This document shows, one piece after another, positions 1,941-46,762 of a stretch of DNA of 64,000 nt. Under the pieces are notes generated by a model. That model did not search any database. It was given only the letters and a program-made list of their open reading frames with translations, and had not been told where the DNA came from. Source of the stretch: Azospirillaceae bacterium (GTDB lineage: Bacteria; Pseudomonadota; Alphaproteobacteria; Azospirillales; Azospirillaceae); assembly GCA_028283825.1 (NCBI GenBank), contig JAPWJW010000003.1:868001-932000 (forward strand). Direction: 5' to 3'. The position numbers and the translations under genes are program-made. Every line of letters begins with the position of its first letter. The first letter of the stretch is position 1.

Positions 1941-3020
1941 TCACTCCGGGCTATCGGCGTCGCCTTCAGCCTCAGGGGAGCCCACCATCATGGCGCCGGC
2001 GACCAGGCCGGCGTTGGCGCGGACCTTGTCCTCGATGGCCTTGGCCATGCCGCCACGTTGGTGCGCAGGAACTGCTTGGCGTTCTCGCGGCCCTGGCCGA
2101 CGCGCTGGCCGTCGTAGGAGAACCAGGCGCCGGACTTCTCCACCACGCCGGCCTGAATGCCCAGGTCGATCAGCTCACCCACCTTGGACACACCCTCGCC
2201 ATACATGATGTCGAACTCGACCACGCGGAACGGCGGGGCCAGCTTGTTCTTCACCACCTTCACACGGGTCTGGTTGCCGACGACGTTGTCGCGGTCCTTG
2301 ATCGCGCCGATGCGGCGGATGTCCAGGCGGATGGAGGCGTAGAACTTCAGCGCGTTGCCGCCGGTGGTGGTTTCCGGGTTGCCGAACATCACGCCGATCT
2401 TCAGGCGGATCTGGTTGATGAAGATCACCAGGCAGTTCGACTTGGAGATGGATGAGGTCAGCTTGCGCAGCGCCTGGCTCATCAGGCGGGCCTGCAGGCC
2501 GACGTGGCTGTCGCCCATCTCGCCTTCCAGCTCGGCGCGCGGCACCAAGCGCCGCCACCGAGTCCACCACCAGCACGTCGATGGCGCCGGAGCGCACCAG
2601 CGTATCGGTGATTTCCAGCGCCTGTTCACCGGCGTCGGGCTGGGAGATCAGCAGTTCTTCCACGTTCACGCCCAGCTTGCGGGCGTAGGAGGGGTCCAGC
2701 GCGTGTTCGGCATCGACGAAGGCGCAGGTGCCGCCGCTCTTCTGGGCTTCGGCGATGGCGTGCAGCGCCAGCGTCGTCTTGCCCGAGCTTTCCGGCCCGT
2801 AGATTTCGACGATACGGCCGCGCGGCAAACCGCCGATGCCCAGCGCGATATCCAGCCCCAGCGAACCGGTGGAAATGGCGTCCACTTCCATCGACGCCTC
2901 CTTGGCGCCGAGCTTCATGATGGAACCCTTGCCGAACGCGCGTTCGATCTGGCCGAGAGCGGCGTCGAGGGCCTTTTGCTTATCCATGGGTGTTTCTACC
3001 AGACGAAGTGGTGCCGACAT
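1941..3020 (-). CDS. recA: RecA recombinase, two compensating frameshifts as written
   Basis: DNA-dependent ATPase for homologous recombination and SOS co-protease activity. Visible are the N-terminal [19 protein letters not shown], Walker [10 protein letters not shown], the Walker B strand [11 protein letters not shown], the L2/NQIR region ([19 protein letters not shown]) and the C-terminal [11 protein letters not shown]. The reading frame shifts at about 2547 (one extra base in an AA) and returns at about 2049 (one base missing, probably a G). After both corrections the ORF reads to the TGA at 1941 with normal length (about 359 residues from 3020). Start 3020 has GAGGGGG upstream; a second ATG at 2987 begins the family core. 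Because the two indels restore the frame and recA is rarely lost, sequencing error is the likelier explanation. Confidence 0.9.
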
Positions 3021-43407: not shown

Positions 43408-44556
43408 GTGACAGACATGACCCAAGAGCCCCTGTGGCAGCCCAGCGATATTCAAATCCAGGAAGGCGTCGAGAAGGAAGTCGACGGCGACGCGCCGAAG
43501 CGGCGCGGCCGCATTCCCCAGTCCGCCTGGCCCTCCATCCTGGAACGCTATCGCGCCGGCGCCACGCTGTCGGCGATCGCGCGGGAGTTCGACTGCACGC
43601 CCAGCGCCATTTCCTACATCGTCCGCAAGGCGGAGACCAGCGGCGCCCCGGAGGCAGAAGGTACCGACGCCCCCGTTTCGGCCACACCGCCTGAAGCCAC
43701 ACCGGTCGCGGCCGCACCGGTGGTAGACGTGGCCCCGACGGACGCCGCCACGGGCGAAGCCGTCACGCCCCCCGCGCCGGCGCCCAGGGCGCCGCGGGCC
43801 CCCAAGGTTGAAGCCCCCCTGGCACCCGCGCTGCCGCTGGAACAGCCGGCGGTCACCGTGGCCGCCGCTCCGGTCGAGGCCCCGCAGCCTTCCGTCGCCC
43901 CTCCCCCGGCCGGCCGGCCGCCGCGCGCCGCCGGCGAACGTGGCCCCCGCACCGAACGCGGGCCGCGTTCTGCCGAAGGTCGTGAGCCGCGCGAACAGCG
44001 CACCCAGGAGCCGCGCCCCGAGGGTGAGCAGCCGCGCCAGGGCGAAGGCCGCGCCGCCGACGGCAACCGCTTCGGCGGCGACCGTCCGCGGGGCGAGCGC
44101 CGCACCCTGACCGGTGCCGCCGTGGCCAACGCCGCCCAGGAACGCAGCCAGCCGCCGGCCGTCAGCCAGGGCCAGCGCGCCTTCGGCGACCGTCAGCCAT
44201 CCCTGGGTCAGCCCACGGAATCGATGGAGCAGATGCTGGATCGCCCGTACGGCGATCGGCCGGTGGGCACCGAATATCCCTACCGCCAGCAGCAGCGCAA
44301 CCCGGCCCGCCTGGAAGCGGCCGAGACGCCGACGGAGCCGGCGGACCAGCGGATGGCCGGGGCCGCCCAGCGCAGCGCCGAAGCCTACGCCGCCTGGAAG
44401 GCCAACCCGGAAGGCGGCATGCAGGGATTGACCGACGCGCTGCATGAACTGCGCAAGGTCATCGCCCGCATGGAGATCGAGATGTCGGCCAGCCGCAAGG
44501 AAGAAAACGCGGCCCGCCCCATCCCCATCCCCTACCACCGCGCCCAGCGCCGCTGA
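43408..44556 (+). CDS. HTH protein with long disordered body
   Basis: A 382-residue protein. The N-terminal helix-turn-helix (about residues 32-72; PQSAWPSILERYRAGATLSA then IAREFDCTPSAISYIVRKAE) resembles homeodomain-like resolvase/Hin HTHs. The centre (about 80-260) is Pro/Ala then Arg/Glu/Gly-rich and surely disordered; a short helical C-terminus (LTDALHELRKVIARMEIEMS) may mediate oligomerisation. Probably a DNA-binding, perhaps nucleoid-associated or regulatory protein. The start could be GTG 43408 or ATG 43417; neither has a strong binding site. Confidence 0.75.
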   Translation: MTDMTQEPLWQPSDIQIQEGVEKEVDGDAPKRRGRIPQSAWPSILERYRAGATLSAIAREFDCTPSAISYIVRKAETSGAPEAEGTDAPVSATPPEATPVAAAPVVDVAPTDAATGEAVTPPAPAPRAPRAPKVEAPLAPALPLEQPAVTVAAAPVEAPQPSVAPPPAGRPPRAAGERGPRTERGPRSAEGREPREQRTQEPRPEGEQPRQGEGRAADGNRFGGDRPRGERRTLTGAAVANAAQERSQPPAVSQGQRAFGDRQPSLGQPTESMEQMLDRPYGDRPVGTEYPYRQQQRNPARLEAAETPTEPADQRMAGAAQRSAEAYAAWKANPEGGMQGLTDALHELRKVIARMEIEMSASRKEENAARPIPIPYHRAQRR

Positions 44557-44591: not shown

Positions 44592-44637
44592 AAAGAAAAG
44601 CCCCGCCGGATCGCGCATCCGACGGGGCTTTTCTTTT
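44592..44637 (+). terminator. Strong bidirectional terminator
   Basis: AAAGAAAAGCCCCG..CGG and its complement form a long stem with T runs on both sides (CTTTTCTTTT on plus, CTTTTCTTTA on minus). It ends both the rightward HTH gene and the leftward small membrane gene. Confidence 0.9.
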
Positions 44638-44658: not shown

Positions 44659-44853
44659 CTACGACCCCATGGCGGCGCCCAGAATGACGACGGCGCCATA
44701 GAGCGTGGCGAACAGGCTGGCCAGCGCGAGGAAATCCCGTACCAGGCGGCCGCCATTGGCGCCGGCCTGGATCAGCGCACGGCGGCGCAACAGGTTGGTT
44801 TTCGGGGAAAAGCTGATCCCACGCATCGGATGGTCGACCGCGATGTACGCCAT
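44659..44853 (-). CDS. 64-residue single-pass membrane protein, SOS candidate
   Basis: A short protein with a basic N-terminal half (ISFSPKTNLLRRRALIQAG) and one C-terminal membrane helix (about residues 40-61, DFLALASLFATLYGAVVILG), so probably N-in. The ribosome binding site GGAGGGG before the ATG is excellent, and it has its own terminator. Two GTTC-N7-GTTC-type LexA-box candidates lie 71 and 99 bases upstream. I know no family for it. By analogy with small SOS-induced membrane proteins such as Caulobacter SidA it may slow division or alter the membrane after DNA damage; this is inference. Confidence 0.7.
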   Translation of the reverse strand: MAYIAVDHPMRGISFSPKTNLLRRRALIQAGANGGRLVRDFLALASLFATLYGAVVILGAAMGS

Positions 44854-44924
44854 TTACCCCTCCACCTTGCCTGTTCCGGCATCGGGACTGTTCCGCCCAG
44901 CCGTTCATGGGCTTAGTGTTGCCA

Positions 44925-44939
44925 GAACGTTCCGGGAAC
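44925..44939 (-). promoter_or_regulatory. SOS box candidate, proximal
   Basis: Read leftward, GTTCCCGGAACGTTC fits GTTC-N7-GTTC exactly (alphaproteobacterial LexA consensus). 71 bases upstream of the small membrane protein start. Confidence 0.6.
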
Positions 44940-44952
44940 TACAAGAACAAAT

Positions 44953-44967
44953 GTTCTCATCCTGTTC
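44953..44967 (-). promoter_or_regulatory. SOS box candidate, distal
   Basis: On the plus strand GTTCTCATCCTGTTC fits GTTC-N7-GTTC exactly. It lies 13 bases from the proximal box and in the opposite orientation. Further GTTC half-sites follow at 44976 and 44982. Confidence 0.6.
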
Positions 44968-45100: not shown

Positions 45101-45460
45101 TCAGAGCCCCGCCGCCGCGAACGCGGCCTCATAGCGCTCCGGCTTGAAGCCGGCCATCAGTTGGCCATCCAGATCGAGGATGGGGCGCTTGATCATGGAG
45201 GGCTGGGCCAGCATCAGGGTGATCGCCCTGGGCACGTCCAGATCCTGCCGCTCCGCCTCCGGCAGGGCGCGGAAAGTGGTACCGGCGCGGTTCAGCACCG
45301 TCTCCCAACCCAGCGCGTCACACCAGGCCGCCAGCCGGTCGTGGTCGATGCCCACCGCCTTGTAGTCGTGGAACGCATGGGGGACGCCGCGCGCGGCCAG
45401 CCAGTCGCGGGCCTTGCGCATGGTGTCGCAATTCTTGATTCCGTAAATCGTGATGGTCAC
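45101..45460 (-). CDS. ArsC-family reductase-like protein (YffB/Spx type)
   Basis: A 119-residue thioredoxin-fold protein: ITIYGIKNCDTMRKARDWLA with the single active-site Cys in NCDT, then GVPHAFHDYKAVGID, and the family end MIKRPILDLDGQLMAGFKPE. YffB-like proteins are glutathione-dependent reductases of unclear substrate; arsenate reduction is not implied. The start is GTG 45460 with AAGGGAAG upstream; the frame extends a little further. It follows the NTF2-like gene closely, same strand. Confidence 0.85.
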   Translation of the reverse strand: MTITIYGIKNCDTMRKARDWLAARGVPHAFHDYKAVGIDHDRLAAWCDALGWETVLNRAGTTFRALPEAERQDLDVPRAITLMLAQPSMIKRPILDLDGQLMAGFKPERYEAAFAAAGL

Positions 45461-45473
45461 GGGGGTGCTTCCC

Positions 45474-45857
45474 TTATCCAGCGTGTGTATCGTCAAGCTT
45501 GTCCAGTACAGGGGCGCCGGTGACGAACCAGGCGCGGGTGATGCGTTCGCCCGTCACCTCATAGATCGCCAGCACGTCCAGGGTGCCGGTACCTTCCGGG
45601 AAGGTGCGGGTCACCACCTCGCGGTCCACCACGGTGTTGCCCACGCAGAGACGCTGCACCAGATGGCCGTGCAGGTTGGGCTCCTGGAACCGCGTCACGT
45701 GCCGCGCCCGGATCTCCGCCGCCCCCGACGCCAGCAGCGTGTCGGGATGCTGGTAGATGCGGGCATCGGTTGCCCAATAGGTCATGAAGGTGTCGATGTC
45801 CTTGGCGTTGTAGGCCTGCAACTGGCCGTCGGCGACCTGGTCGGGGGTAAGGGGCAT
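45474..45857 (-). CDS. NTF2-like (SnoaL-type) protein
   Basis: A 127-residue cone-fold protein: ADGQLQAYNAKDIDTFMTYW then ATDARIYQHPDTLLASG, and strands VVDREVVTRTFPEGTGTLDV and LAIYEVTGERITRAWFVTG. Such proteins are small-molecule binders or isomerases with no fixed activity. 13 bases before the ArsC-like gene, so likely co-transcribed. ATG 45872 is an alternative start. Confidence 0.8.
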   Translation of the reverse strand: MPLTPDQVADGQLQAYNAKDIDTFMTYWATDARIYQHPDTLLASGAAEIRARHVTRFQEPNLHGHLVQRLCVGNTVVDREVVTRTFPEGTGTLDVLAIYEVTGERITRAWFVTGAPVLDKLDDTHAG

Positions 45858-45928: not shown

Positions 45929-46762
45929 TCATTCGGCATGGCGCCCATTCGCGATGCCGGCCCGTTGGTCATCCAGCCAACCCGCGGCCCGCACGGCGGC
46001 CACGCTGGTGCGCGCCACCGGCGCCTCCAGCCCCGTGACCAGGCGCAGGCGCAGGTTCCGCCCGTCGCGCACCAGCCCCGCCACGGCGGCCCGCGCCACC
46101 CACCAGGAGCGATGCACCCTCATGCCCGGCACATCGTCCAGTTCGGCGACGGCCTGGTGCAGGGGGATCAACACCAGGGCGGAGCCCAGCGGCGTGTGGG
46201 CGCGCACGTAGTGATCCTCCATGCTGAGCGCCAGCAGATCGCGGCCCAGCGCCGCCGGCAGGCGGGCGAGGAAAGAGGAGGCAGGCGTGCCGGCGGTTTG
46301 CGATTCCGGCGACCCTTCCTGGCCGGCCGGCGACCGGCGCAAATGCCCGGCCACCGCGCCATAGCCGTACGCGCTGCACAGCGCCATCAGCAGCGTCTGG
46401 CCATACCACAGCGGCCAGCCGATGCGGGCGATGGGCCCCGGCCACAGGGTCAACGCCAACAGGCGGCAGGCGATCGCCAAAGGAAGGGCGGCCAGGACGG
46501 CGACCAGTGCCGCCAGGCCCATTCTTTTCCGCCAATCCCAGCCTCGGGCATTAACGAAGGCCAGGCGCAGGACAACCCCCAGGATGGCCGTTCCCAGCCA
46601 CTGCGCCGCCACCCAATAGGCCAGCAGCAGGATCAGCGAGTCGTTATAGAAACTGCCGAACGGGCCGATCAGACCCAGCGCCACGCCCACGACGCTCGCC
46701 AGCGCGAACGCCCGCACCCAGGACCGCCCGTCCCCGAAAACCTGCCGCCAGACGCCGTCCAT
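45929..46762 (-). CDS. Membrane-bound LytTR regulator
   Basis: A 277-residue protein with four membrane helices (about residues 18-150) followed by a cytoplasmic LytTR DNA-binding domain (about 165-265; DLLALSMEDHYVRAHTPLG, VHRSWWVARAAVAGLVRDGR, LRLRLVTGLEAPVART). No receiver domain, so signals are probably sensed in the membrane. Divergent from the hydrolase gene at 46945, which could be a target. Confidence 0.85.
   Translation of the reverse strand: MDGVWRQVFGDGRSWVRAFALASVVGVALGLIGPFGSFYNDSLILLLAYWVAAQWLGTAILGVVLRLAFVNARGWDWRKRMGLAALVAVLAALPLAIACRLLALTLWPGPIARIGWPLWYGQTLLMALCSAYGYGAVAGHLRRSPAGQEGSPESQTAGTPASSFLARLPAALGRDLLALSMEDHYVRAHTPLGSALVLIPLHQAVAELDDVPGMRVHRSWWVARAAVAGLVRDGRNLRLRLVTGLEAPVARTSVAAVRAAGWLDDQRAGIANGRHAE

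Follow-up and report, generated by a model that had tools for sequence, protein, structure and literature searches.

Short predicted membrane peptides behind multiple LexA boxes in Azospirillaceae and other alphaproteobacteria

The 64-residue open reading frame (ORF) found behind two LexA boxes in the window (the whole stretch of 64,000 nucleotides that was analyzed) belongs, as an N-terminally extended form, to a widespread SOS peptide family, which occurs in many soil alphaproteobacteria and which we detected in 74 of the 82 Azospirillaceae genomes searched. In our assessment, which draws on sequence evidence, control of the peptide gene by LexA is nearly certain. An earlier sequence-only reading of this DNA had described a 64-residue membrane protein; the finding holds up and extends further than first described, and the protein itself, although real, turned out to be the long form of a peptide that usually counts 32 residues.

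RESULTS

Organization of the locus. The single-pass ORF of 64 residues and the two exact GTTC-N7-GTTC boxes that the sequence-only reading had pointed out were confirmed at the positions given in Table 1, and the ribosome-binding site upstream of the ORF is conserved in the six copies available from the genus Nitrospirillum. The terminator attributed to the gene corresponds to a real hairpin with a 20-bp stem and a 5-nt loop, but it is a two-way element shared with the convergent HTH gene; it is absent from the list returned by a simple terminator scanner. Two additional GTTC half-sites (44976 and 44982) exist as described, without being conserved across Nitrospirillum.

Table 1. Features of the peptide locus and of recA in the window
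Feature	Position	Strand	Remarks
64-aa single-pass protein	44659..44853	-	ATG start, stop codon included; form taken by the 32-aa SOS peptides in Nitrospirillum
Conserved 32-residue family core, residues 33-64	44662..44757	-	Alignments A3-A6 with peptides of other genera
Predicted membrane span, residues 41-59	44677..44733	-	19-residue Kyte-Doolittle mean of 2.16
N-terminal extension, residues 1-32, basic	44758..44853	-	Missing in 32-aa forms; low-confidence tail, then helix
Shine-Dalgarno GGTGGAGGGG	44857..44866	-	Same in six genus copies
Predicted extended -10 region after box 2	44916..44924	-	Poor consensus match in Nitrospirillum
LexA box 2, GTTCCCGGAACGTTC	44925..44939	-	Between predicted -35 and -10
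TTG of predicted -35	44942..44944	-	2 bp ahead of box 2
LexA box 1, GAACAGGATGAGAAC in gene direction	44953..44967	+	Directly upstream of predicted -35
Bidirectional terminator hairpin, common to convergent HTH gene	44592..44636	.	Fold, -36.3 kcal/mol
Convergent HTH-type protein, synteny anchor	43408..44556	+	Pfam best E 0.0004, matches below cut-off
ArsC-family gene upstream, synteny anchor	45101..45496	-	Same strand as peptide gene; Pfam ArsC 1.1e-20
recA	2178..3020	-	Pfam RecA 3.4e-75

The alignment of 63 family promoters revealed a TTG located 2 bp ahead of the second box in 62 of them; downstream of this box, every promoter has A at +5, 56 have T at +1, and 51 have G at +2. This pattern fits a putative promoter in which a -35 element, abutted by box 1, is followed by a spacer of 17 bp, which box 2 fills, and then by an extended -10. 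A simple promoter scan listed no promoter in the window region of the peptide gene.

The LexA motif of the source genome. The window contains six exact GTTC-N7-GTTC matches versus 1.17 expected, a number reached by none of 100 shuffles. Apart from the pair upstream of the peptide gene, the matches lie at 2923-2937, 16674, 35516, and 49494, the first of them within the recA coding sequence. The region upstream of recA has no exact N7 box and presents a GAAC-N6-GAAC sequence and two boxes matching at seven of the eight positions. In the whole genome, we counted 132 exact boxes versus 88 matches of the pattern read backwards; among the matches listed (100 of the 132), the pair at 44925/44953 is the only one closer than about 500 bp, the next being spaced 523 bp. 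By arithmetic, about 0.12 pairs within 50 bp are expected in the whole genome.

The lexA promoter carries the box GAACCAAAATAGAAC 76 bases 5' of the start codon in all seven Nitrospirillum genomes, a count that leaves out the second lexA-like locus of genome G062. Furthermore, we read 20 other box sites of the source genome, picked by eye and mostly for AT-rich spacers; six adjoin genes of repair or SOS type according to NCBIfam (uvrA with a divergent ssb, imuA, dinB, recQ, a PA0069-type radical SAM protein, and a RarA-type ATPase), with imuA, the RarA-type protein, and the locus-truncated uvrA scoring under the curated cut-offs, and the other 14 are hypothetical, unclear, or intragenic. Since the same motif occurs at lexA and at several repair genes, GTTC-N7-GTTC is, on these sequence grounds, the LexA motif of the source genome, in line with the initial assignment.

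Some minor observations concern other box-bearing loci. In the assembly, the lexA gene of the source genome (L059, contig C3, 474000-478000) shows two extra bases near its 3' end compared to a relative, and its frame runs far beyond the usual VGLFRRY end. In the g7, g12, and g11 genomes that we read (L118, L125, and L126), the lexA promoter itself carries a convergent double box with an 11-bp gap, which is listed as 10 to 11 bp in the g11 genomes. Moreover, three hypothetical proteins that look alike by eye (L008, L047, and L055) are each encoded behind a LexA-type box; L008 and L055 have no NCBIfam match.

Conservation within Nitrospirillum. The sequence-only reading had named a lack of conservation of the ORF or its boxes in related genomes as a result that would speak against it; what we observed is clearly the opposite. 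The 64-residue ORF was found in six of the seven Nitrospirillum genomes (75 to 83% identity), and both boxes are exact in all six promoters, with the eight fixed bases of each box invariant; in the upstream flank of the same promoters, 18 of 53 columns are invariant. The seventh genome, G063, is split into 730 contigs, and the gene was matched there neither by the single sequence nor by either profile, a result in which loss and assembly gap are indistinguishable. Over the 15 pairs of ORFs, the mean dN is 0.073 and the mean dS is 0.48, and the dN/dS ratios obtained from the means are about 0.15 for the whole ORF, about 0.10 for the C-terminal half, and about 0.20 for the N-terminal half. The peptide ORF is under purifying selection.

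The short form in the Azospirillaceae. The single-sequence search, positive in 6 of the 82 family genomes, had pointed to a gene confined to one genus, an idea that was dropped when profile and double-box searches revealed short forms elsewhere. A profile of the six 64-residue proteins gave weak matches (E values of 1e-4 to 1e-2) in 12 additional Azospirillaceae, and 10 of the 12 are short peptides behind LexA boxes; the weak matches at L075 and L076 lie within long frames and were discarded. The double-box pattern GAAC-N7-GAAC-N10-16-GTTC-N7-GTTC occurs in 65 of the 82 genomes, and the reversed control occurs in none of the 82. For 64 of the 65, the box pair is located 5' of the peptide gene; the one of G055 is the lexA promoter, as is a second pair read in one g11 genome and one g12 genome. 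A 32-position profile retrieved the gene from 10 more genomes without an exact pair of that kind, raising the total to 74; no match came from G031, G047, G049, G050, G051, G056, and G063, nor from G055, which the 32-position profile did not cover.

As regards the arrangement of the boxes, 64 of the 74 genomes have two convergent ones, spaced 26 to 28 bp, that surround and enter the promoter. The 260 bp upstream of the gene contain two or more exact boxes in 66 genomes and a single one in seven, and G057 presents near-matches only, two of which are 27 bp apart. Three exact boxes occur in 24 genomes; in 20 of these, plus the two-box genome G003, one box is placed about 28 bases ahead of the start codon. 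What the first reading had seen at one promoter, namely, a double box before a small gene, accompanies the peptide as a double or triple box across the family and, as described below, beyond it.

The peptide is 32 residues long in 71 of the 86 tabulated loci and 64 residues long in Nitrospirillum, the table leaving out G054, G405, G468, and G473, whose starts are extended or unclear. N-terminal extensions were also noticed in g12, g6, and at least one genome of family f16, and C-terminal ones were noticed in g5. With such a size, the gene may be short enough for gene callers to skip.

The peptide gene has a homologue of the convergent HTH gene nearby in g12, g13, and g6 and at loci L074, L167, and L173, and a homologue of the ArsC neighbor at six g11-type loci (L073, L120, L121, L157, L178, and L180). 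Since these homologues adjoin, the 64-residue protein of Nitrospirillum is tied by position to the 32-residue peptides of those genera. In the g3 (Azospirillum-type) loci, neither homologue was found, so it is the peptide profile and the boxes that provide the link to the g3 peptides. By eye, no recurrent neighbor was recognized in the translations of ten loci, neither a division gene nor a membrane protein.

Distribution beyond the family. A tightened 19-base promoter pattern, searched in a class-wide sample of 385 genomes, hit five, which are the five family members sampled, and none of the 380 others. When this pattern was run over 84,980 species, 48 loci were retrieved, 43 of which encode the peptide, as called with a profile partly built from the same genomes and with L197 cut by the locus end. 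These 43 loci come from Azospirillum, Nitrospirillum, Niveispirillum, Skermanella, Oleisolibacter, Aerophototrophica, and two alphaproteobacteria with less precise names. The five loci without the peptide (Gulosibacter, Sporosarcina, Corynebacterium, a Phocaeicola metagenome-assembled genome [MAG], and a MAG named only as "bacterium") look like chance, about four chance loci being estimated.

In the class sample, convincing members were found in three families only, i.e., the Azospirillaceae (f1), f16, and f64. Family f16 carries the gene in 15 of 17 genomes, 14 detected with the peptide profile and one with a broader profile. Its promoter could be read in 14 genomes, one other lying at a contig end; 12 of these promoters show two exact boxes or more, and 2 show one. 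In most cases, one box occupies the promoter spacer, and the other overlaps the Shine-Dalgarno region; at most of the f16 loci that we read (L203 to L215), the second LexA box and the ribosome site have bases in common. In the one positive genome of f64, two tandem boxes stand 15 bp apart, and the only other genome searched from its order, 68% complete, gave no match. The occurrence of differing box layouts on one gene suggests repeated selection for more than one operator.

In 18 weak loci (L138 to L142 and L219 to L231), none of which was counted, the 400 bases on either side of the middle contained no exact box; most of the class-level matches that were read (L138 to L142, L219, L221, L223, L227, and L229) lie within longer frames. 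One of them, L142, from the Azospirillum-type genome G012, is a family-like match (E value of 9.3e-4) in a 100-residue frame without an exact box and could be a box-less relative. No match was obtained in a scan of genome contigs with the consensus protein, in plasmid records searched with one 32-residue peptide at E values up to 1, or in viral contigs searched with the promoter pattern. A literature search, conducted mostly without subscription papers, found no report of the peptide.

A spurious ORF, or boxes placed by chance, would be conceivable for a short ORF in GC-rich DNA, given the 1.17 exact boxes that chance alone would supply per 64-kb window. We regard this explanation as scarcely credible in view of the purifying selection, the near-constant length over three bacterial families, the conserved boxes, and the zero matches of the control.

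Features of the peptides. The window protein has seven basic residues before the span and none after it, so its N terminus is probably located inside. AlphaFold models it as one helix (residues 17 to 63) with a mean pLDDT of 75.8, based on six sequences; the mean is 96 for residues 41 to 50 and 94 for residues 51 to 60, and values below 50 at residues 1 to 3 and 5 to 14 indicate a disordered start. A 19-residue Kyte-Doolittle mean of 1.6 is attained by 52 of the 67 distinct peptides, and in 43 of the 67 the side before the hydrophobic stretch is more basic than the side after it. All 56 distinct peptides of 31 to 33 residues have an acidic residue at position 9; 54 have G at position 27, 54 have Y or F at position 21, and 44 have W at position 23. 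Nitrospirillum features an alanine in place of the common W, with a one-residue shift. G or A occupies positions 15, 18, and 22 in 30, 48, and 40 of these 56, respectively. The net charge of the 53 distinct 32-residue peptides is 0 in 30, +1 in 17, -1 in 5, and +2 in 1. A conserved helical face was tested as proof of a docking partner; the periodicity is not significant (permutation P value of 0.21) and does not discriminate between the mechanisms discussed below.

The family is without a name in Pfam, NCBIfam, PHROGs, and the PDB. In particular, when 35 members were compared to NCBIfam, Pfam, and PHROGs, the best E values were 0.0079 (two members), 0.015 (one member), and 0.013 (one member), respectively, scattered matches at chance level and none of them convincing; PDB sequences gave no match at E values up to 1, and the window protein had no Pfam match. 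In these four databases, no sequence match to any known division inhibitor was observed.

DISCUSSION

Relation to known SOS-induced membrane proteins. The closest functional model is SidA of Caulobacter crescentus, described in the available part of the source as a 29-residue SOS-induced inner-membrane division inhibitor that is repressed by LexA and acts on FtsW (PMC4211646); it resembles our peptides in its comparable size and single span. The accessible portion of another paper reports that a Caulobacter lexA deletion strain filaments through constitutive sidA and that about 97% of the Caulobacter SOS promoters carry a single LexA box (PMC12700426), different from the peptide family, which usually has two or three. 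DidA, a 71-residue single-span damage-induced division inhibitor of Caulobacter, is close in length to the 64-residue form but, according to the same partial text that covers SidA, is SOS independent, is activated by DriD, and binds FtsN (PMC4211646). YneA, SosA, and ChiZ appear in the available sections of a further source as damage-induced small membrane division inhibitors with late-division targets (PMC13396833); different from the peptide family, YneA and ChiZ carry a LysM domain, which was absent from the Pfam matches of the 35 members.

Proposed mechanism. We consider, with moderate confidence, a division-inhibiting action like that of SidA to be the most likely. In undamaged cells, LexA dimers would occupy both boxes; LexA on box 2, which fills the space between -35 and -10, would block the polymerase directly, and box 1, abutting the -35, would double the lock. 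Upon DNA damage, RecA-stimulated self-cleavage of LexA would free the promoter, and a short one-gene message would be translated into a tiny single-span inner-membrane protein, whose helix could bind a late division component, either FtsW alone or among FtsW, FtsI, and FtsN, so that constriction would be held off until repair is done, as with SidA in Caulobacter.

A double lock fits this proposal because a leaky division brake would be costly, and colicin promoters with two LexA sites offer a precedent. In the available text on the cea8 promoter, two LexA sites are associated with delayed induction, and silencing also needs AsnC (PMC4482635), a requirement that, together with the nature of colicins as plasmid-borne antibiotics, sets them apart from the peptide gene. 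It is possible to infer, as the sequence-only reading did, that the product may be harmful if made by mistake.

In this proposal, the sequence supports the boxes, the motif shared with lexA and repair genes, the conservation, the coding constraint, and the hydrophobic span; LexA occupancy, induction, membrane insertion with the N terminus inside, the one-gene message, and the division target are inferred. Against the proposal stand the lack of a sequence match to a known division inhibitor, the lack of a recurrent division-gene neighbor recognized by eye at ten loci, the N-terminal position of the basic residues in only 43 of 67 peptides, and the nonsignificant helical face; we also count against it the alanine of Nitrospirillum at the common W, the failure to find the gene in 8 of the 82 family genomes, including one of Nitrospirillum, and the box-less L142.

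The main rival draws on type I toxins. TisB is a tiny SOS-induced single-span peptide that acts as a type I toxin with an antisense RNA. DinQ is likewise a toxic single-span SOS peptide of type I with an antisense RNA, as stated in the accessible part of its description (PMC3567139). On this model, the hydrophobic peptide would depolarize the membrane and slow growth or make persisters, perhaps under an antisense-RNA antitoxin. Size, single span, and LexA control fit this alternative equally well, and the multiple boxes suggest a harmful product. Type I toxin systems have a structured leader, for which little room is left at several g11 and f16 loci, since the spacer box ends about 32 to 36 nt before the ATG; leaders are short in many genomes of the peptide family. 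Moreover, the 32-residue peptides are not cationic, with a net charge of 0 in 30 of 53. With these points weighed, we consider the toxin explanation possible but unlikely.

It may also be that the peptide is an SOS-induced regulator of another membrane protein, such as a protease, a transporter, a respiratory enzyme, or an envelope sensor, and does not act on the divisome. Modulation of larger membrane proteins is common among single-span microproteins, and the G or A residues at positions 15, 18, and 22 would suit helix packing. We hold this explanation to be about as unlikely as the toxin one: no recurrent membrane-protein neighbor was recognized by eye at the ten loci, and the small SOS membrane proteins covered in the available sections of the review act on division (PMC13396833).

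Returning to division inhibition, the data allow a broader proposal, to which we assign roughly even chances. The peptides would represent an undescribed 32-residue SOS checkpoint family, present in at least three alphaproteobacterial families, on which two or three LexA operators would have been placed independently in several lineages (on both sides of the -35, within the promoter spacer, one behind the other, or over the Shine-Dalgarno region); the multiplicity of the operators, rather than their strength, would mark the one SOS product whose leakage the cell cannot afford, and in Azospirillum-like bacteria the peptide would serve as the main SOS brake on division. To our knowledge, a damage-induced protein that stops division is known for few alphaproteobacteria, and the peptide offers a small, testable candidate in 74 of 82 family genomes, including culturable strains of Azospirillum and Nitrospirillum. 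Furthermore, the natural series of promoters with one, two, and three LexA boxes would show what extra operators buy, i.e., tighter basal repression, later induction, or both.

A last observation concerns the neighborhood of the gene. In Caulobacter, the available part of a report describes HigX as a transmembrane LytTR regulator linked to the SOS response (PMC13384398). Three genes upstream of the peptide gene, at 45929-46762 on the minus strand, the window encodes a LytTR-domain protein (Pfam) whose N-terminal half is hydrophobic by eye.
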